From a virus, in IMG/VR virus record IMGVR_UViG_3300034107_000625, positions 1 through 24,591 of that record: DNA of 24,591 nucleotides. One strand, 5' to 3'. Positions 14,848 through 22,206 of this stretch are shown here, one piece after another. The notes under the pieces are model-generated. The model was not told where the DNA came from, searched no databases, and was given only the letters and a program-made list of their open reading frames with translations. Each line of letters begins with the position of its first letter. The stretch's first letter is position 1. The position numbers and the translations under genes are program-made.

Positions 14848-15519
14848 TCAACCCCCAATCTTTGCAATAATGGCGCTGAGATCCGGCGCCTCCCAAGTGT
14901 CAAGCTTGCCCGAGCGATCTTTGGCTTGCCAAATGCCGTCTGAGTCACACATCAACGCACGTTGTGCCACACCCTCTGCATCTTTCTCAACGCGTAATGC
15001 CAACACTTCATCAAAGAAGTAAGGCAGCGCTTGACCAGTTTTGTTGCCTGGCATCGACGGCGCGTAGAGAATGCGCCCCGACTCATCAGCAGTCTTCTCA
15101 CACTTCGCTGTGAAATATATATGCTTGCCAGGTATATCGCGAAAGGCGCGAATAATGTCATACATCTGCTCTTGCATGGCGCCATAAGCCTGCCTCGGAT
15201 CTTTTGCAATTTTCTTCTCATGGTTCAGCACCACCTCGGCGATCTCTGAAATCGAATCAAGTGCAATCGACTCAAACTGTTTTGCTTCGTCTGATTCAAT
15301 CAACCAACGATACGCTTCCATCAGGGTGTCGTAAGATGACACCTCGACAAAAGGTAGGTCTGCATCGACAATTGATAACAACCCACCTTCAGCCGATAAC
15401 ACAACAGGGTTTGGCAGGGTGGGGATCAGGCTTGTTTTACCGGCGCCTGCTTGTGCGTAAACCAACAACTTCACACCATTGGCGTGTAGACCTTTGGTAC
15501 TGCGTAGATTGATAGCCAT
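14848..15519 (-). CDS. Sak4-like RecA-fold ATPase (AAA_24), single-strand annealing recombinase
   Basis: This 223-residue protein is a lone RecA-like ATPase core. Walker A is QAGAGKTS (residues 23-30), and Walker B is 'SIALDS' with D89. 'LSAEGGLLSI' lies between them, and 'HIYFTAKCEKT' and 'NKTGQALPYFFDEVLAL' follow. These are features of phage Sak4/AAA_24 proteins, which bind single-stranded DNA and promote annealing or strand exchange with an SSB-like partner. It is the first gene of the leftward operon, with AGGAGA before ATG 15519 and a promoter about 50 bases upstream, so it is probably the earliest and best expressed of the set. Confidence 0.88.
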   Translation of the reverse strand: MAINLRSTKGLHANGVKLLVYAQAGAGKTSLIPTLPNPVVLSAEGGLLSIVDADLPFVEVSSYDTLMEAYRWLIESDEAKQFESIALDSISEIAEVVLNHEKKIAKDPRQAYGAMQEQMYDIIRAFRDIPGKHIYFTAKCEKTADESGRILYAPSMPGNKTGQALPYFFDEVLALRVEKDAEGVAQRALMCDSDGIWQAKDRSGKLDTWEAPDLSAIIAKIGG

Positions 15520-15536
15520 GTGGCTCTCCTAAGTTG

Positions 15537-15564
15537 ATCGCTTGTCGGGGCTCCGTTTAGCGAT
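15537..15564 (-). promoter_or_regulatory. stem-loop in the 5' leader of the early operon
   Basis: ATCGCT (15537-15542) and AGCGAT (15559-15564) are inverted and enclose a second small stem, CGG/CCG. In the leftward RNA the hairpin would lie between the predicted start near 15565 and the AGGAGA site of the Sak4-like gene. It might protect the 5' end or affect translation; this is inference. Confidence 0.4.
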
Positions 15565-15567
15565 TGA

Positions 15568-15614
15568 TTGAATTATTGCACGATAAATGTTATTGTGTCA
15601 ACAAGATAATTCAA
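15568..15614. promoter_or_regulatory. dyad-symmetric candidate operator
   Basis: TTGAATTAT (15568-15576) is repeated inverted as ATAATTCAA (15606-15614), centred on about 15591. The half-sites flank and overlap the leftward promoter elements, and the dyad lies just upstream of a 57-residue HTH gene. This is the expected layout for an operator through which that protein controls the early operon and its own gene. The wide spacing would suit looping or two dimers. Confidence 0.55.
15572..15601 (-). promoter_or_regulatory. sigma-70-type promoter for the leftward early operon
   Basis: On the - strand, a consensus -35 TTGACA (15601-15596) is followed after 18 bases by AATAAT (15577-15572), one mismatch from consensus. 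The predicted start is near 15565, giving a leader of about 46 bases before the Sak4-like gene. It is the strongest promoter match noticed in the window. Confidence 0.72.
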
Positions 15615-15636
15615 TTTAATTTAAAAAGGTGCAAAA

Positions 15637-15810
15637 ATGTTGACGATTGAACAGATTCGGGAGTTGATGCACGACAGGTCGGTGCCTATTGTTGCGGAGT
15701 TGGCGGGGGTGCATTACAACACCTTGCTGAACATCAAAAACGGTGCAAACAAGAATCCTTCCTATGAAGTGATTAAAAAGTTGTCTGAGTATTTTGATCC
15801 CAAACCATGA
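15637..15810 (+). CDS. small Cro/XRE-like helix-turn-helix regulator, 57 aa
   Basis: ATG 15637 is preceded by AAAGGTG at good spacing. The stop overlaps the primase-polymerase start in an ATGA junction. The product begins MLTIEQIRELM and contains 'PIVAELAGVHYNTLLNIKNG' at residues 17-36, a classical HTH of the XRE/Cro type, with helix 2 'VAELAGV', the turn and recognition helix 'YNTLLNIKNG'. It ends with 'SYEVIKKLSEYFDPKP'. It is short for a repressor and lacks a dimerisation domain, as Cro-type proteins do. It probably binds the dyad at 15568-15614, controlling both the leftward operon and its own transcript. Confidence 0.85.
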   Translation: MLTIEQIRELMHDRSVPIVAELAGVHYNTLLNIKNGANKNPSYEVIKKLSEYFDPKP

Positions 15811-17783
15811 GCCTCCATATGACAACAACAACAAAGTTAGAGGCCGCACTTACTTATGCGTCTTGGGGTTGGCACGTCTTACCGCTAATTCCAAACGATA
15901 AGCGCCCAGCGTCAGCGCATGGGGTGCATGATGCGACTACCGATCCCGAGCAGATCAAAGCTTGGTGGTCTGCTAATCCAGAGTTTAATATTGGTATTGC
16001 AGCAGGTGAAAAGAGCGGTATTGTGGTGTTTGACATTGACCCGCGCAATGGTGGAAGCGAGTCTTGGGATGATTTTACAGCAGAGCACGGCGCCGTACCT
16101 GACGGAATATGCCAACTGACTGCGGGAGGCGGGCAGCATTACATCGCCCAAGCCCGCGAGAATCTAAAAAGTTGTGAGTTGCGCCGTGGCGTTGATTTTC
16201 TAGCCAATGGGCGGTATTTTGTTGTCACCCCGTCAAGTGTGAACGATCGTGAGTACGCATGGGAAGCGTCAGGCGACCCTACAGATGGGATTAGCCCCTT
16301 TGCGATACCAGAAACGTGGTTAGCAGCGATGGCAGTACGCAAAGTCATTGTGACGGCAACAGATGGTGAGTTGATCACCGGTAATCGTAATGCGGGATTG
16401 GCGTCTATGGCGGGTTCTATGCGTCGTAATGGCTTCTCAAGCAGCGAAATATTTGCAGCCATTAGCGCAGCGAACGCCGAGCGGTGCGATATCCCGTTAC
16501 CCGCGTCCGATGTTAAGCGTATTGCCGAGAGTATCGCCCGCTACGCCCCCGAGCATGACATCGGCGCCTCCGCAGCACTTGGTGATGCAGCAGCCGAGAA
16601 CTTGATCCGTGAGCAATCGCCTCACCCCTTATCAACCTTCGTACATTACGATCTAGACAATATCCCCCCCACCGAGTACGTGTTAGACGGCATTATGGAA
16701 GCAGGCGTGGTGTTGGTGGTTGGCTCAGCAGCATCGGGCAAGACCACCCAATTGTTGCCCCTTCTTACCCGTGTCACCCATCTCTGCGACCCTGACGATC
16801 CCCTTAAACCTCTCCTTCGTCGCAAGTTGATCTGGGTATCTGAGGATCCTAAACAGGCTTTGCGTATTTTGCGATCGATGCGTGAGGCAGGGCATTTTGG
16901 CACCCACAGCGCCCGCGAGGTGTCCGAATGGATCAAGGTGGTCGCAGCCGCCCGCTTGGCGCCCGAGATAGTCGCCCAGGTCGCACCATTCTATGAAACT
17001 ATGGCAGTTGATAACATCAGTGCAGACGGTGAGGTATACCGCACTAACCCCGTTGTAGTGTTTGATACCAATAACAGCGTATTTGATCTTGAAAATGAGT
17101 CCGACAACAGCGAGGTCGGACGCGCCATGGCAGTCCTTAAACAGAAGTTTAGGGGCATCCCACTTGTATTGGTCGGTCATATTGCCAAAGCACTCAAGCG
17201 CGCCGATGTGGTCGATTTCAGCGCCAGGGGGGCAGGCGCTTGGGAGGCTGACGCTAACCAAGTCATGTACATGATCAAAGAAGATGACGGTAAGCGGTGG
17301 CTTGAGATCGTATCTGCTAAGCATCGATTCTTTGCCCGCGCGGACGGGATCCTGTTTGGCGCAAGCATTAACGTGATTCAGACGCATGACATCTTGGGCA
17401 ACAAAATAACCGAAACCCTGATCCATGGGGTGCCTGAAATCGTTGAAGCTGGGGGTAAAAGTGAGATAGCAAAGGTAAAAGAAAAGAACCGAAAGGATGC
17501 AGATTTAGCAGCCCGACAATTATTGTTAAAGCAAAAGGAGGAGGCGGTTATATCGGCGCTGAATTTACTTAATAAAACTGAATACCGCACTAAAACTGAA
17601 CTCGCCGAGCGTATTGGTGGCAACAAAAATCAAGCCCTTGAGGTGATCGATGCCATGGTTGCGCGTGGCATGATTAACGCCATTTATACGCCATTTGAAG
17701 CCCCAATTGAGAAGCGTGCAGGTCGCCATGATTCGGGTTATGTGATGCCGAAATCGTACAAAAAAGAGTCGGATGGGGAGTAA
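15807..17783 (+). CDS. bifunctional primase-polymerase / helicase fusion with C-terminal winged helix
   Basis: This 658-residue protein starts in the ATGA overlap with the HTH gene. Residues about 10-180 form an AEP prim-pol domain: 'WHVLPLIPNDKRP', 'GIAAGEKSGIVVFDIDPRNGG' with the metal-binding pair D76/D78, 'TAGGGQHY' with H111, and 'LRRGVDFLANGRYFV'. Residues about 192-250 resemble a PriCT domain (NAGLASMAGSMRRNG...). A RecA-like ATPase follows, with Walker A GSAASGKT at 306-313 and Walker B 'VVVFDT' with D420. The last 100 residues look like a winged helix ('LNKTEYRTKTELAERIGGNKNQALEVIDAMVARGMI' in order). It should prime and unwind DNA at the origin; the repeat array follows directly. 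Confidence 0.9.
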   Translation: MSLHMTTTTKLEAALTYASWGWHVLPLIPNDKRPASAHGVHDATTDPEQIKAWWSANPEFNIGIAAGEKSGIVVFDIDPRNGGSESWDDFTAEHGAVPDGICQLTAGGGQHYIAQARENLKSCELRRGVDFLANGRYFVVTPSSVNDREYAWEASGDPTDGISPFAIPETWLAAMAVRKVIVTATDGELITGNRNAGLASMAGSMRRNGFSSSEIFAAISAANAERCDIPLPASDVKRIAESIARYAPEHDIGASAALGDAAAENLIREQSPHPLSTFVHYDLDNIPPTEYVLDGIMEAGVVLVVGSAASGKTTQLLPLLTRVTHLCDPDDPLKPLLRRKLIWVSEDPKQALRILRSMREAGHFGTHSAREVSEWIKVVAAARLAPEIVAQVAPFYETMAVDNISADGEVYRTNPVVVFDTNNSVFDLENESDNSEVGRAMAVLKQKFRGIPLVLVGHIAKALKRADVVDFSARGAGAWEADANQVMYMIKEDDGKRWLEIVSAKHRFFARADGILFGASINVIQTHDILGNKITETLIHGVPEIVEAGGKSEIAKVKEKNRKDADLAARQLLLKQKEEAVISALNLLNKTEYRTKTELAERIGGNKNQALEVIDAMVARGMINAIYTPFEAPIEKRAGRHDSGYVMPKSYKKESDGE

Positions 17784-17790
17784 TAATATT

Positions 17791-17992
17791 TGTACCGTTA
17801 ATGTACCGCTAATTGTGGGTTATTGGGGTTAACCCTTAAAATATGATCAAAAAGTGATCAAAAATTAGCAGTACTGCGGTACCGGTACACCTAAGGATAC
17901 ATACCCTGTACCGCTAACCTTGGGGGGTTAGCAGTACATATACAGATTTCACTTGTACCGCTATGTACCGCTGTGTACCGCTGTACCGCTAA
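17791..17992. repeat. iteron-like array of an 11-bp repeat (candidate replication origin or packaging site)
   Basis: The unit TGTACCGCTAA, or a close variant, occurs in direct orientation at 17791-17801 (one change), 17802-17812, 17907-17917, 17954-17963, 17964-17973, 17974-17983 and 17982-17992. The last four are spaced by 10, 10 and 8 bases. Inverted variants TTAGCAGTAC lie at 17865-17874 and 17928-17938, and a partial inverted copy at 17876-17882. The region also holds a palindrome GGGTTAACCC (17826-17835) and two TGATCAAAAA units 11 bases apart (17844, 17855). It occupies the whole gap between the convergent primase-polymerase and terS genes. Multiple short repeats beside the replication initiator are typical of iteron origins. 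Small-terminase binding is the main alternative. Confidence 0.8.
17907..17938. repeat. long inverted repeat within the iteron array
   Basis: TGTACCGCTAACC (17907-17919) pairs with GGTTAGCAGTACA (17926-17938), 12 of 13 positions, around a 6-base loop of T and G. It could extrude as a cruciform, bind a protein dimer, or terminate either convergent transcript. Confidence 0.65.
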
Positions 17993-18480
17993 TCTAGAGT
18001 TTTAGATTCGTTTGGGGTGATATCGGTCACATCCAAAAGCCTAGCCTCGGCCTGCTCCAAAGCTTGCACAATGGATATTTGTGTGTGTGTAACACTCACA
18101 TCGATTTTGTCGCCCCATTGTTTTGGTCTGAGTTTTGAGGCGCTCCACTTACGAGCATCGATCCTAAGCCTTTGACGATTCACCCAGGCGTTGATTAAAG
18201 CGGGATCAAGGTCTGGTGGTGGCATCTCATCGGCAAGATCAACTAACTCATCTGCTAGGTAGTCGCCACGCTCTTCTATAGCTAAGTAATACTTCTTTTT
18301 TAAATCTTCGTTTTGTCGCAAGTGATATTTGGCTTGAGCATAGGGGATCTGGAGCGATTTAGCGGCACCCACTAAGCTTTGACCGCTTGAGATGCGTTCG
18401 AGGATCTGAGGCCATATCTCGCGTTCGGTGTAAGCAAGATTATGCAATCCTCTTCTTTTCTTTTCAATTACTTGTGACAT
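17989..18480 (-). CDS. terS: terminase small subunit
   Basis: I chose ATG 18480, which has AGGGA 7 bases upstream; the extension to a GTG at 18498 has no such site. The 163-residue product has an N-terminal HTH region (about 20-57, 'REIWPQILERISSGQSLVGAAKSL' then 'PYAQAKYHLRQNEDLKKKY') for DNA recognition. A helical oligomerisation centre follows, with 'RQRLRIDARKWSASKLRPK' then 'WGDK' near residues 103-125, a signature shared by many phage small terminases. It recognises the packaging site and delivers DNA to the large subunit. It is unusual in being on the opposite strand to terL and separated from it by a GP88 gene. Its stop codon lies inside the last copy of the repeat array. Confidence 0.88.
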   Translation of the reverse strand: MSQVIEKKRRGLHNLAYTEREIWPQILERISSGQSLVGAAKSLQIPYAQAKYHLRQNEDLKKKYYLAIEERGDYLADELVDLADEMPPPDLDPALINAWVNRQRLRIDARKWSASKLRPKQWGDKIDVSVTHTQISIVQALEQAEARLLDVTDITPNESKTLD

Positions 18481-18544
18481 GGTTTGTCCCTGATACACGT
18501 TAGCGCATTTTATGGTTAATTGAGGGTGAATGTATAGGGGGCGT

Positions 18545-18567
18545 AAAAAAACCCGCCTAAGCGGGTT
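18545..18567 (-). terminator. intrinsic terminator of the GP88/micro-peptide transcript
   Basis: On the - strand, AACCCGC and GCGGGTT form a 7-bp stem with a 4-base loop (plus coordinates 18550-18567), followed by seven T (18551-18545). It lies after the micro-peptide genes and before terS, so it separates the GP88 transcript from the terS gene. terS would then need its own promoter or antitermination. Confidence 0.82.
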
Positions 18568-18586
18568 CTGATGCGTTTTAGATGGG

Positions 18587-18649
18587 TTATAGGTCGAAGA
18601 CTAATATTGCTAGTATGACTAGACCTGCTGCAATCAGGGAAATGGTCAT
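18587..18649 (-). CDS. micro-membrane peptide B, 20 aa
   Basis: The frame is ATG 18649 to TAA 18587, starting 8 bases after the stop of micro-peptide A. The product is MTISLIAAGLVILAILVFDL, almost entirely hydrophobic and long enough for one short membrane helix. The upstream GAG core is a weak ribosome-binding site, so translation may depend on coupling to A. A terminator follows its stop by about 20 bases. Random sequence rarely gives two adjacent hydrophobic frames like this, but the length makes the call uncertain. Confidence 0.5.
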   Translation of the reverse strand: MTISLIAAGLVILAILVFDL

Positions 18650-18657
18650 TGTGGATC

Positions 18658-18732
18658 TCAAATAAAATTGAAAAGGATTAGGGCAATGAACATTAGTACG
18701 AGCCCTAGCGCTGCGTGGATTTTCTCTGACAT
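18658..18732 (-). CDS. micro-membrane peptide A, 24 aa
   Basis: ATG 18732 has an AAAGGA site 6 bases upstream; the stop is TGA at 18658. After a polar start (MSEKIHA) the remaining residues, ALGLVLMFIALILFNFI, form a single hydrophobic helix. It follows the GP88 gene and a hairpin on the same strand and is followed at once by a second hydrophobic micro-peptide. Holin-like, superinfection-exclusion or membrane-protein-regulating roles are all possible. No family is recognised. Confidence 0.58.
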   Translation of the reverse strand: MSEKIHAALGLVLMFIALILFNFI

Positions 18733-18751
18733 GGTTAGTCCTTTAAATAAT

Positions 18752-18767
18752 GGCCACTCGCGTGGCC
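18752..18767 (-). terminator. GNRA-loop hairpin after the GP88 gene, possible attenuator
   Basis: On the - strand GGCCAC and GTGGCC form a stem closed by the tetraloop GCGA, followed by ATTATTT. It lies 8 bases after the GP88 stop and before micro-peptide A. The T tract is weak, so partial termination or RNA stabilisation is more likely than full termination. Confidence 0.48.
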
Positions 18768-18775
18768 GTGGGGGT

Positions 18776-19513
18776 TTATGCTGCTAATTTAATGGGGATA
18801 ATGCGACGCAGGGTATCAACTACAAAAGGGCCTGTATCCTTTTTGGCTTGGCCTTTGGCATATAAGGCCACTATTCTATTTTTTGGTTCTACGTGACGGA
18901 TATCCGAGTTATCGCCAGGTATCACGCGCAAACCCAAAAAGCTTTTAGGGATATCGGCCACGGTTCTAAACACTACAGCAATACGCATTTTGTTAGCAAT
19001 TGCTTGCTGGACATACTTTTGGTATGCCAGCGCGCCACTATAGGAAAATGTCAGATCGTAATTGCTTGGTACGTTTTTACGGTTTGCAAGCTTGGTGTAG
19101 TCGTAAAACTGTACTTGGGGAAATAGGGCAAAAATACTTGTGTATGTAATGCCGCGGTAAGTGACTGGTATGCTTTCCCATCTAATGTCGCTAGTGCCGT
19201 TTAGGCGTACCACTGGCGTTAAATCCTGACGCATGGCCTGACGGATTAAAGCAAAAACACTATCGATCAATTCGAGCATAAACGATTCACGATCGTTAAA
19301 AAACCAATCTGTTTTAGATAGCCTGGCGATCTGCACGCTAGTAAACGCGCCACGGCCAGCACTAAACAAGCATGGCGCCTCGCATTCTGCAAGCTTGGCC
19401 ATAGGGCAAACCTGTTGGCCTGATAGGTCGCTAGGTGTTAGATACAGTATGCCGGTAAGAAAACCAAGTTTTAAACCTTTTACTGTTTTTGCGTCGCTAG
19501 ATATTGATAGCAT
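18776..19513 (-). CDS. GP88 family phage protein, 245 aa
   Basis: ATG 19513 is preceded by GGAG at 8 bases. The layout matches the family called Gene product 88: 'KLGFLTGILYLTPSDLSGQQVCPMA' with C36, then C44 and C48 (AECEAPCLFSAGRGAF), then 'VVRLNGTSDIRWE' at residues 101-113, 'FPQVQFYDYTK' near 131-141 and 'NYDLTFSYSG' at 151-160. The clustered cysteines suggest a metal or iron-sulphur site. The function of this family is not established. Here it is transcribed away from terL, with two micro-peptides and a terminator behind it and a repeat-rich region in front of it. Confidence 0.85.
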   Translation of the reverse strand: MLSISSDAKTVKGLKLGFLTGILYLTPSDLSGQQVCPMAKLAECEAPCLFSAGRGAFTSVQIARLSKTDWFFNDRESFMLELIDSVFALIRQAMRQDLTPVVRLNGTSDIRWESIPVTYRGITYTSIFALFPQVQFYDYTKLANRKNVPSNYDLTFSYSGALAYQKYVQQAIANKMRIAVVFRTVADIPKSFLGLRVIPGDNSDIRHVEPKNRIVALYAKGQAKKDTGPFVVDTLRRIIPIKLAA

Positions 19514-19568
19514 GTAATGCTCCAGGTGTGATAAATCAGATTAGGGAATACATACAATAGCACACTTT

Positions 19569-19596
19569 TGCTCACAATGCTCACAAATGCTCACAA
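19569..19596. repeat. three tandem TGCTCACAA repeats
   Basis: TGCTCACAA occurs at 19569-19577, 19578-19586 and 19588-19596, with 9- and 10-base spacing. They lie 55 bases upstream of the GP88 start and could be binding sites for a regulator of that gene or part of the neighbouring packaging-site candidate. Confidence 0.65.
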
Positions 19597-19612
19597 TAAA
19601 TCAATATATCGA

Positions 19613-19729
19613 TGTTGCATCGCACAATGCTTGAGCTGTGAATGTTGCATTGCATCATGTCATGTTGCATTGCACTATGTTGCAGCGCACCATAGTCGTG
19701 CCGCAGTGCAGCAATGCTGCAACGCAACA
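19613..19729. repeat. TGTTGCATYGCA repeat cluster (candidate cos/pac or terS binding site)
   Basis: Direct copies of TGTTGCATYGCA lie at 19613-19624, 19643-19654, 19663-19674 and, with changes, 19678-19689 (TGTTGCAGCGCA). An inverted copy lies at 19718-19729 (TGCAACGCAACA). The spacing is 30, 20 and 15 bases. There is no gene in this 320-base gap between GP88 and terL. Repeats immediately upstream of terL are a common place for small-terminase recognition sites in cos and pac phages. A regulator operator or a second origin is also possible. Confidence 0.7.
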
Positions 19730-19732
19730 GCC

Positions 19733-19768
19733 AGGGGGTAGGGGGGGGGAGCCCTGCCGAGGAGCCCT
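19733..19768. other. G-rich tract and GAGCCCT repeat upstream of terL
   Basis: The + strand reads five G, TA, then nine G (19734-19749 region), followed by GAGCCCT at 19749-19755 and again at 19762-19768. An AT-rich stretch follows at 19788-19822. A GC-rich block beside repeats and then AT-rich DNA is the layout of some cos sites and could also form a G-quadruplex. Nothing else in 19514-19834 looks coding. Confidence 0.5.
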
Positions 19769-19821
19769 AGCTAGCGGAGGATTCACCCCAAAAATTTATT
19801 TTTTATTATTATTTCTTCATT

Positions 19822-19827
19822 TACAAT
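19822..19827 (+). promoter_or_regulatory. candidate -10 element for a leaderless terL transcript
   Basis: TACAAT differs from the -10 consensus at one position and ends 7 bases before the terL ATG, so transcription would begin at or next to the start codon. No Shine-Dalgarno sequence precedes terL, which fits leaderless initiation. The -35 region is only T-rich, so support is moderate. Confidence 0.45.
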
Positions 19828-19834
19828 CAGCCTC

Positions 19835-21355
19835 ATGCAAACCCCCCTCTACTCCCCAGACGAAGAGATGGCTCTAATGAGCCGCCTCTGGGCGCCTAAG
19901 ATCAAAGACGATCCCCTATCTTTTGTCTTGTACGCATTCCCCTGGGGGCAAAAAGGTACGCCGCTTGAGAACTTCTCCGGCCCACGCCGTTGGCAACGCG
20001 AGGTCTTGTCTGACCTGACCGCCCATATTAAAGCTAACAATGGCTTGGTGGATTTCAACACCTTCCGCATGGCGACATCATCCGGTCGCGGTATTGGCAA
20101 ATCGGCGTTAGTCAGTTGGCTAACCCTATGGATGTTGTCCACACGCATTGGCTCGACTACCATCATTTCAGCCAACAGCGAATCGCAGCTCCGGTCAGTC
20201 ACCTGGGCAGAGATTACCAAGTGGTTGGCGATGTCTTTGAACTCACATTGGTTTGAGGTCAGCGCAACGCGACTCATGCCCGCTAAGTGGATTACCGAAC
20301 TAGTCGAGCGTGACTTAAAGAAAGGCACACGCTATTGGTCGGTGGAAGGACGGCTTTGGTCAAGCGAGAACCCTGACGCGTACGCGGGGGTTCACAACTA
20401 CGACGGTGTGATGGTGATCTTTGATGAAGCAAGCGGTATTGACGACGCCATTTGGGCGGTGACTGCTGGCTTTTTTACCGAGAACACGCCCAACCGTTTT
20501 TGGTTGGCGTTTTCTAACCCGCGTCGCAACACCGGTTACTTCTACGAATGCCACAACTCTAAGCGTGACTTTTGGAATACCAAGATTGTAGATGCGCGCA
20601 CGGTCGAGGGTACGGACAAGGCGGTCTATCAGCAGATCATTGACGAATATGGTGCTGACTCTAGCCAAGCTGCGGTTGAGGTCTATGGTGACTTTCCCTC
20701 TGCGGGTGATGATCAGTTCATATCATCATCAATCGTTGATGAAGCCATGCGGCGCCCACGGCTTAAAGACTTGAGCGCCCCCATTATTGTGGGCGTTGAC
20801 CCAGCGCGCTTTGGTTCTGACTCGACCGTGATCGCCATCAGGCAAGGGCGTGACATTATTGGCATTAAACGCTTCAAAGGCGACGATACGATGACCGTTG
20901 TAGGGCACGTTATTGAGTGTATTGAGGAATATAAGCCCGCGTTGGTGGTAATCGACGAAGGCGGCGTGGGTGGTGGGGTTGTAGACCGCCTAAAAGAGCA
21001 GCGGTACAAGATTCGGGGCGTGAATTTTGGAAATAAATCAAAAAACCCGCTTATGTATGGTAATTTAAGGGCACAAATGTGGGGCGATATGCGAAATTGG
21101 TTGAAAACCGCGTCGATTCCTAGTGACAGGATACTTAAAACTGATTTAATATCACCAGTAATGAAACCCGACTCTAAAGGTACGATCTTTTTAGAGTCTA
21201 AGAAAGACATGAAAGCGCGGGGCCTAGCCTCGCCTGATGCAGCAGATGCTATATGCGTGACGTTTGCATTCCCCGTCGCGCACCGAGAGTACGCAGAACC
21301 AAAGCGCCGTAGTCAATCAACTAATAGTTTACAAACTTCTTGGATGGGAGCTTGA
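19835..21355 (+). CDS. terL: terminase large subunit
   Basis: This 506-residue protein has an N-terminal ATPase with Walker A SGRGIGKS (residues 83-90), the adenine/coupling 'TTIISANSESQLRSVTW', and Walker B 'VMVIFDEAS' at 192-200. A C-terminal RNase-H-like nuclease follows, with 'IIVGVDPARFGSDST' (D322), 'VVIDEGGVGGGVVDRL' (D374) and 'LASPDAADAICVTFAF' near the end. It pumps DNA into the prohead and cuts concatemers. The ATG at 19835 gives an N-terminus (QTPLYSPDEEMALMSRLW) of normal length for this terminase type, although no ribosome-binding site is seen. An internal ATG at residue 12 is the alternative start. Confidence 0.95.
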   Translation: MQTPLYSPDEEMALMSRLWAPKIKDDPLSFVLYAFPWGQKGTPLENFSGPRRWQREVLSDLTAHIKANNGLVDFNTFRMATSSGRGIGKSALVSWLTLWMLSTRIGSTTIISANSESQLRSVTWAEITKWLAMSLNSHWFEVSATRLMPAKWITELVERDLKKGTRYWSVEGRLWSSENPDAYAGVHNYDGVMVIFDEASGIDDAIWAVTAGFFTENTPNRFWLAFSNPRRNTGYFYECHNSKRDFWNTKIVDARTVEGTDKAVYQQIIDEYGADSSQAAVEVYGDFPSAGDDQFISSSIVDEAMRRPRLKDLSAPIIVGVDPARFGSDSTVIAIRQGRDIIGIKRFKGDDTMTVVGHVIECIEEYKPALVVIDEGGVGGGVVDRLKEQRYKIRGVNFGNKSKNPLMYGNLRAQMWGDMRNWLKTASIPSDRILKTDLISPVMKPDSKGTIFLESKKDMKARGLASPDAADAICVTFAFPVAHREYAEPKRRSQSTNSLQTSWMGA

Positions 21356-21815: not shown

Positions 21816-21964
21816 TGGCTAAGACCGGACTCTACTCAAATATCCACGCCAAACAAGAGCGCATTAAAGCAGGATCGGGTGAGAAGATGCGTAAGCCTGG
21901 CGCCGCCGGTGCGCCGACCGCCAAAGATTTTAAACAATCAGCCAAAACTGCAAAGAAGAAATGA
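21815..21964 (+). CDS. small basic phage protein, 49 aa (AKTGLYSNIHAK family)
   Basis: ATG 21815 is in a TAATG junction, and its TGA overlaps the co-chaperonin ATG at 21961. The product starts MAKTGLYSNIHAKQERIKAG, then 'GSGEKMRKPGAAGAPTAKDF' and a Lys/Ala-rich end. It is strongly basic and glycine/alanine-rich. Proteins of this form are common next to portal genes in tailed phages but have no assigned function; a small DNA-binding or head-associated role is possible. Confidence 0.85.
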   Translation: MAKTGLYSNIHAKQERIKAGSGEKMRKPGAAGAPTAKDFKQSAKTAKKK

Positions 21965-22206
21965 TCCAACCACTACACGACAATATTGCGGTGCGCCCTG
22001 ACCCGTTTGTGCAAAGCGGGCTGATTATTATGCCCGAGGAAGACACCCGCACAGGCGTGGTGGTGGCAGTTGGGCTAGGCAAGAAAGACTCCAAACGGCC
22101 CTTAATGGTTGCCGTAGGTGATCATGTCATGTACAGCGGTACAATTGACCGCAAGTACGAAGATTTGATCCTGATGAAAGACAAGGACGTAATCGGATTG
22201 GTATGA
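21961..22206 (+). CDS. phage GroES-like co-chaperonin (Cpn10)
   Basis: This 81-residue protein has the Cpn10 layout: 'IQPLHDNIAVRPDP' first strand, 'SGLIIMPEEDTRTGVVVAVG' covering the mobile-loop/GroEL-contact region and the following strand, 'PLMVAVGDHVMYSG', and 'KYEDLILMKDKDVIGLV' at the end. It is shorter than bacterial GroES (about 95 residues), with the mobile loop compressed to a G-L-I-I-x-P core. T4 gp31 is a known precedent for a phage co-chaperonin that replaces host GroES to fold the major capsid protein. Its place between terL and portal, ATGA-coupled to both neighbours, supports a role in head assembly. Confidence 0.88.
   Translation: MIQPLHDNIAVRPDPFVQSGLIIMPEEDTRTGVVVAVGLGKKDSKRPLMVAVGDHVMYSGTIDRKYEDLILMKDKDVIGLV

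Follow-up and report, generated by a model that had tools for sequence, protein, structure and literature searches.

The replication proteins (Reps) of PICIs and SaPIs are SF3/AAA+-type initiator helicases, and the elements that carry them are satellites; P4 has an SF3 helicase and an ori/crr arrangement. The origin of the PICI pri-rep-ori module lies immediately 3' of the gene and has been tested as an origin (PMC6092414), and in SaPIs, the C-terminal domain of Rep acts on iterons downstream of the Rep gene (PMC7581432). In the scheme described for plasmid RSF1010, RepC binds, RepA unwinds, and RepB' primes at ssi hairpins, while pRN1 has a stem-loop origin 3' of its PrimPol-SF3-wH gene (PMC4234260). 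The DNA-binding domain of Vibrio PLE RepA covaries with its iterons, and replication is supported by cognate pairs only (PMC8263062).

Here we describe a locus in a 24,591-nucleotide stretch of viral DNA (IMG/VR record IMGVR_UViG_3300034107_000625; the whole stretch is called the window below) that combines features of these systems. We consider it very probable that a gap in this window is a phage replication origin whose iterons are bound by the winged helix (wH) of a PrimPol-RepA-type helicase.

An iteron array downstream of the PrimPol-helicase gene

The gap is noncoding and 205 bp long (positions 17784 to 17988), reaching from the stop of the PrimPol-helicase gene (17783, + strand) to the stop of terS (17989, - strand), and the two genes are convergent on it. 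The initial annotation had described repeats of a TGTACCGCTA-like unit in this gap, and we confirmed seven direct and three inverted copies. The features of the region are as follows.

15807 to 17783, + strand: PrimPol, PriCT-1, RepA-type RecA-fold (AAA_25) helicase, and C-terminal winged helix; proposed initiator/helicase/primase
17484 to 17780, + strand: C-terminal winged-helix domain, residues 560 to 658; proposed iteron-binding domain
17625 to 17666, + strand: predicted recognition helix, residues 607 to 620
17791 to 17991, no strand: iteron array (proposed origin), seven direct and three inverted TGTACCGCTA-like copies
17791 to 17811, + strand: first pair of direct iterons (17791 to 17800 and 17802 to 17811)
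17826 to 17835, no strand: GGGTTAACCC palindrome
17844 to 17860, no strand: inverted repeat TGATCA-AAAAG-TGATCA, candidate DNA-unwinding element
17866 to 17889, - strand: two inverted iterons (17866 to 17875 and 17880 to 17889)
17890 to 17896, no strand: CCTAAGG, the window's form of a unit-independent CCTWWAGG core
17907 to 17938, no strand: central hairpin of one direct and one inverted iteron
17954 to 17991, + strand: four tandem direct iterons with spacing 10/10/8, the last overlapping the terS stop
17989 to 18498, - strand: terS (Sf6-type), neighbor of the array

The direct copies start at 17791, 17802, 17907, 17954, 17964, 17974, and 17982 and the inverted copies at 17866 (two mismatches), 17880, and 17929. 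From 17954 onward, the tandem iterons are spaced by 10, 10, and 8 nt, in agreement with the phasing of 8 to 10 bases noted before. With at most one mismatch, TGTACCGCTA has 11 matches in the whole window, nine of them inside the gap; shuffled windows had a mean of 1.07 and a maximum of 4 matches. The gap was also the peak of a 260-bp sliding scan for repeats across the whole window. It contained no DnaA box.

The most AT-rich part of the gap (∼17834 to 17864, 73 to 77% AT) has iterons on either side, at 17791 to 17811 and from 17866 onward, and contains the TGATCA inverted repeat, a candidate DNA-unwinding element. Two extra units had been reported here; both exist (TGATCAAAAA at 17844 and 17855), but they are not separate elements, as in relatives, they are the two arms of a single inverted repeat, TTTGCTCA-AAAAG-TGAGCAAA. 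The 10-bp palindrome reported in the gap is GGGTTAACCC; it is kept in L008, L009, and L013, partly kept in L027 to L029 and L118 to L119, and absent from L002 to L007. The central hairpin and the CCTAAGG core had been missed by the initial annotation. Beyond the array, terS (-) and terL (+) are divergently oriented with a gp88-like gene between them (17989 to 19835), and a small GroES-like (Cpn10) gene lies between terL and the portal gene (21961 to 22206).

The array in relatives and cultured phages

Relatives of the PrimPol protein were gathered from IMG/VR by five protein scans and one pattern scan. Their contigs are metagenomic, many are partial, and the loci are not phylogenetically independent. 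An array was counted if the 260 bp downstream of the PrimPol stop contained at least three copies of an 8-mer, and the control count was made downstream of the other ORFs in the same contigs that were at least 150 aa long. Sought at the same position in related phages, such repeats were present in 80 of 86 relatives versus 17 of 592 other ORF ends, and the array follows the PrimPol-helicase gene regardless of the adjoining gene. In the window's own group, it is kept down to 80% protein identity and lower, and the order of elements is mostly constant: direct copies, AT-rich inverted repeat, inverted copies, CCT(W)AAGG core, iteron hairpin, and tandem direct copies. This order largely persists at 54 to 58% identity (L015, L016, and L030), where the unit is now ATACCACATG-like. 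The relatives use at least a dozen unit sequences; by group, these are TGTACCGCTA, AATACCGCTAA, CATACCGC, ATACCACATG, TGGGACA, CGGGACA, GGGGACA, CCGTAAC, CGTAGC, CGTCACA, CGTAC(T/C), GGGAAC, ACCCCCT, GCCCC(C)T, and TGACCCT. A scan of GTDB genomes for hosts confirmed no relative. A pattern match in L021 was rejected as a chance tandem at a locus without a PrimPol, wH, or TerS relative.

One contig carried similar repeats next to a different gene. In L025 (10229 to 10360), four TGTACCGCTTT-like direct repeats start ∼5 nt past the stop of another PrimPol gene, whose product has a DUF5906 match, is probably SF3/D5-type, and showed no similarity to the window protein by BLAST. A unit close to the window's seems to have been adopted convergently here, a case that qualifies the suggestion that PrimPol-SF3-wH replicons have stem-loops rather than iterons (PMC4234260).

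In six cultured phages, too, an array that exceeded every shuffle lies immediately 3' of the helicase gene: Idiomarinaceae phage 1N2-2 (CGGTACA, 8 copies), Alteromonas PB15 (TGAACCA, 8 copies), Salicola CGphi29 (GGGGACA, 5 copies), Roseobacter CRP-821 (GTATAAA, 10 copies), Rhizobium 16-3 (CGTGACA, 14 copies), and RHph_X2_25 (16 copies). A CCTWWAGG-type core lies within the array hairpin of PB15, 16-3, RHph_X2_25, and CRP-821, and its place is taken by CCTATATAGG in 1N2-2 and by CCCTGTAGGG in CGphi29. Since the primase domain of 1N2-2 and PB15 is TOPRIM, not PrimPol, the array and core follow the RepA-type helicase and C-terminal reader rather than the primase. The distant helicase relatives MW202475, Quesadilla, Mae-JY30, and MW202711 had no significant array. 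Among the literature matches listed, none stood out as describing an origin in phage 16-3.

The C-terminal domain is a predicted winged helix

Modeled alone with AlphaFold2 (18 homologues), residues 560 to 658 were predicted to form a winged helix (pLDDT, 77), with helices at positions 37 to 44 and 48 to 61 of the fragment and a wing of two strands. In this model, the GGNKNQ segment lies where the putative recognition helix begins. A model of the full-length protein was of low quality (pLDDT, 42) and was left unused. Foldseek matched the C-terminal model to the wH domains of MarR, Fur/Zur, PapI, and TubR with modest scores (best E value, 7.7e-3). On the C-terminal domains, no Pfam family scored above its curated cutoff, with weak DnaD_N/TrmB/RepA_N similarity only, and a PDB sequence search with A1 or with the C-terminal half of the window protein gave nothing useful. 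Judging from their sequences, the non-A C-termini are probably winged helices as well.

Over the helicase domain, a profile of 18 family members matched RSF1010 RepA (PDB 1g8y; E = 3.5e-12); the window sequence alone had no match to 1g8y in the PDB. At least two mosaic types of the PrimPol half exist, distinguished by the presence or absence of a PTKDGTIES-like insert (L011 to L014, L029, and L031 versus the window), and these have been exchanged independently of the helicase and wH parts.

The repeat unit covaries with the predicted winged helix

For 43 nonredundant loci, we compared repeat-spectrum similarity with the identity of each protein region using partial Mantel correlations. The raw correlation with unit similarity was 0.70 for residues 560 to 658, 0.59 for the helicase, and 0.40 for PrimPol, while the partial correlation was 0.47 for the C-terminal domain (permutation P = 0.001), -0.01 for the helicase, and 0.05 for PrimPol. 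In the non-A class (n = 33), the best 24-residue segment was the predicted recognition helix (raw, 0.83; partial, 0.77), with the lowest attainable permutation P value. The C-terminal coding sequence adjoins the array, and physical linkage could be the source of part of the covariation; however, the non-A correlation declines again toward the C-terminal end, nearest the array, which argues against linkage alone. In the window's class (n = 11), the signal was broader: the C-terminal tail/wing was highest, and some PrimPol segments scored too. The statistic is not sharply localized in this class; the case there rests on allele swaps.

The sequence GGSKNT at the start of the recognition helix goes with AATACCG-type units in L004 to L007 and L031, independently of the remaining protein, which is of the window type in L004 to L006 and of another type in L007 and L031. 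GGNKNQ proteins have GTACCGC units, and GGNKNQ changes to GGSKNT where the iterons change from TGTACC to AATACC. Further, L037, L039, and L096 keep a closely related PrimPol half (∼85% identical over residues 1 to 250 for L037 and L096) and the same terS neighbor together with a different helicase and C terminus and ACCCCCT units. There are exceptions: the central hairpin of L004 to L007 retains TGTACC, and L065 and L062 break the helix-to-unit rule.

From this covariation and the structure prediction, we infer that the wH binds the TGTACCGCTA iterons. As far as sequence can tell, the locus has the directly repeated units near a proposed initiator gene, conserved and cognate to its product, by which an iteron origin is recognized. 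Comparison strongly supports the iteron origin with the wH as initiator that the initial annotation put forward: relatives keep the array, and its unit changes with the wH allele. AlphaFold2 predicts a winged helix for the C terminus.

Hairpins and the CCTWWAGG core

When folded, the central hairpin (17907 to 17938) had an energy of -9.1 kcal/mol (z score, -4.2) and a loop of 4 nt, which is 6 nt as drawn. In both stems of the class A gap, compensatory changes affect 6 of 21 pairs (16 cells versus 3.7 in shuffles). These changes are consistent with hairpins; a pair of inverted binding sites evolving along with the protein would give an identical pattern. At A4 columns 153/175 of the central hairpin, 16 of 18 distinct sequences have the same-position C-A mismatch because the right arm reads CAGTAC, not CGGTAC.

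A CCTWWAGG-type core was present in 52 of 69 arrays, versus 3.9 expected from dinucleotide shuffles. In most arrays, a CCT-W(1-2)-AGG core lies ∼66 to 136 nt past the PrimPol stop, whatever the unit, and in several groups, the CCTWWAGG core caps a strong hairpin with a stem built from the local unit (for instance, -19.4 kcal/mol and a z score of -6.1 in L079). Nothing linking CCTTTAGG with iterons was found in the open papers searched. Downstream of the PrimPol stop, the non-A arrays of L079, L117, L131, and L141 have two additional unit-independent boxes in common: the hairpin is preceded by GGCAAAGGCGAG (or GACAAGGCG) and followed by CGATGCGG (or CGATGTGG). Neither box was seen in the window.

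Alternative explanations for the array

The initial annotation had offered as its alternative a packaging (pac) site bound by the adjacent TerS. In the window, the end of terS does fall within the array, and in class A and D relatives, terS lies just past it. However, the TerS of L004 is 94% identical to that of the window, yet the unit has changed, while the TerS of L009 is only 57% identical and the unit is the same; L037 to L042 combine 69 to 77% TerS identity with ACCCCCT units. At the class A and D loci as a whole, TerS is 53 to 97% identical to that of the window, with no relation to the unit. Moreover, L015 and L016 lack an adjacent terS but still have the array, and class B TerS matches lie hundreds of bases or more from the array. 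This uncoupling of TerS identity from the unit contradicts the pac-site explanation, to which we attach almost no weight.

We also regard as very unlikely that the gap is a partition (centromere-like) site for plasmid-prophage segregation, with the wH on the iterons in the manner of TubR/tubC or parS. The wH fold also occurs in TubR, which was among the Foldseek matches, and mycobacteriophages can have parS repeats beside repA (PMC7157519), but no ParA, ParB, or TubZ was found among the window proteins searched, and the covarying DNA-binding domain belongs to a primase-helicase, not to a segregation protein. The stability of the central hairpin and the convergent genes would fit an operator array or a bidirectional terminator, but we found no promoter-like site in 17600 to 18200 and no iteron copy in the PrimPol promoter region (15500 to 15810). 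The one weak terminator-like site (versus 0.5 expected) is not the central hairpin, and termination would not require 10 copies of a unit that varies along with a protein's DNA-binding domain. We regard an operator or terminator function as very improbable.

A proposed mechanism of initiation

For a replication origin read by the wH, we propose that the C-terminal domain would bind the TGTACCGCTA iterons immediately 3' of its own gene and that several copies of the protein would assemble on the direct and inverted iterons flanking the AT-rich segment, which the RecA-fold helicase ring would open. The exposed strands would then fold at the iteron hairpin and the CCTAAGG core, where the attached PrimPol domain would lay primers to be extended by a host or phage polymerase. 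We infer melting, priming, and origin activity at the gap. The GC skew of the window largely tracks gene orientation and offers no usable switch at the array, and the circular MW202867 is without a clear switch.

More tentatively, the locus may represent a swappable replicon in a broad group of tailed phages, an idea that we hold as possible rather than probable. One polypeptide, consisting of a primase, a RepA-type helicase, and a variable wH reader, would be paired with matching iterons and with a near-constant CCTWWAGG hairpin core acting as a unit-independent strand-opening or priming element. This would amount to IncQ initiation fused into a single polypeptide whose natural recognition code spans a dozen or more unit types. 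The unit could predict compatibility between co-infecting phages or satellites.

Comparison with known systems

The initial annotation treated the combination of an iteron origin with a winged-helix fusion protein as not known to be described. This holds in part: PICIs/SaPIs and P4 already offer a primase-helicase-DNA-binding fusion with an iteron origin directly 3' of it, and a stem-loop counterpart exists in pRN1. What appears to be new, judging from the open papers searched, is the RepA-type (RecA-fold) helicase, the occurrence in complete phages, and the range of units across the family.

The IncQ plasmid RSF1010, with its oriV, shares with the window a RepA-family helicase (matched by the family profile) and a DNA-binding function on iterons, proposed for the window. 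Priming of exposed hairpins by the primase is the suggested parallel, and the hairpins hint at equivalents of ssiA/ssiB in the window. In RSF1010, however, RepA, RepB', and RepC are separate, whereas PrimPol, helicase, and wH share one ORF in the window, and the RSF1010 iterons are longer. ORF904 of pRN1 likewise joins a PrimPol, a helicase, and a C-terminal winged helix, and its gene is followed directly by the origin; in pRN1, however, the helicase is SF3 and the origin is a 100-nt stem-loop that has no iterons, in contrast to the RecA-fold helicase and iteron array here. The P4 alpha protein also combines a primase, a helicase, and a repeat-binding C-terminal wH in a single polypeptide; unlike in the window, the primase is TOPRIM-type and P4 is a satellite phage.

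PICIs and SaPIs resemble the window in having a primase and an initiator helicase, sometimes fused, and a C-terminal Rep domain that recognizes iterons (PMC6092414, PMC7581432). The layout is similar too, with the array immediately 3' of the replication gene and iterons flanking an AT-rich segment. They differ in that the window helicase is of the RecA-fold RepA type (AAA_25), not SF3/AAA+, and in that the window element, unlike these satellites, has its own terminase, a P22-like portal, and endolysin-like genes. The Vibrio PLE RepA-ori pair shares covariation of the initiator's DNA-binding domain with the iterons, but its initiator is of the RepA_N type with no primase or helicase part described (PMC8263062), and it has two allele groups, versus a dozen unit types in the window's family.
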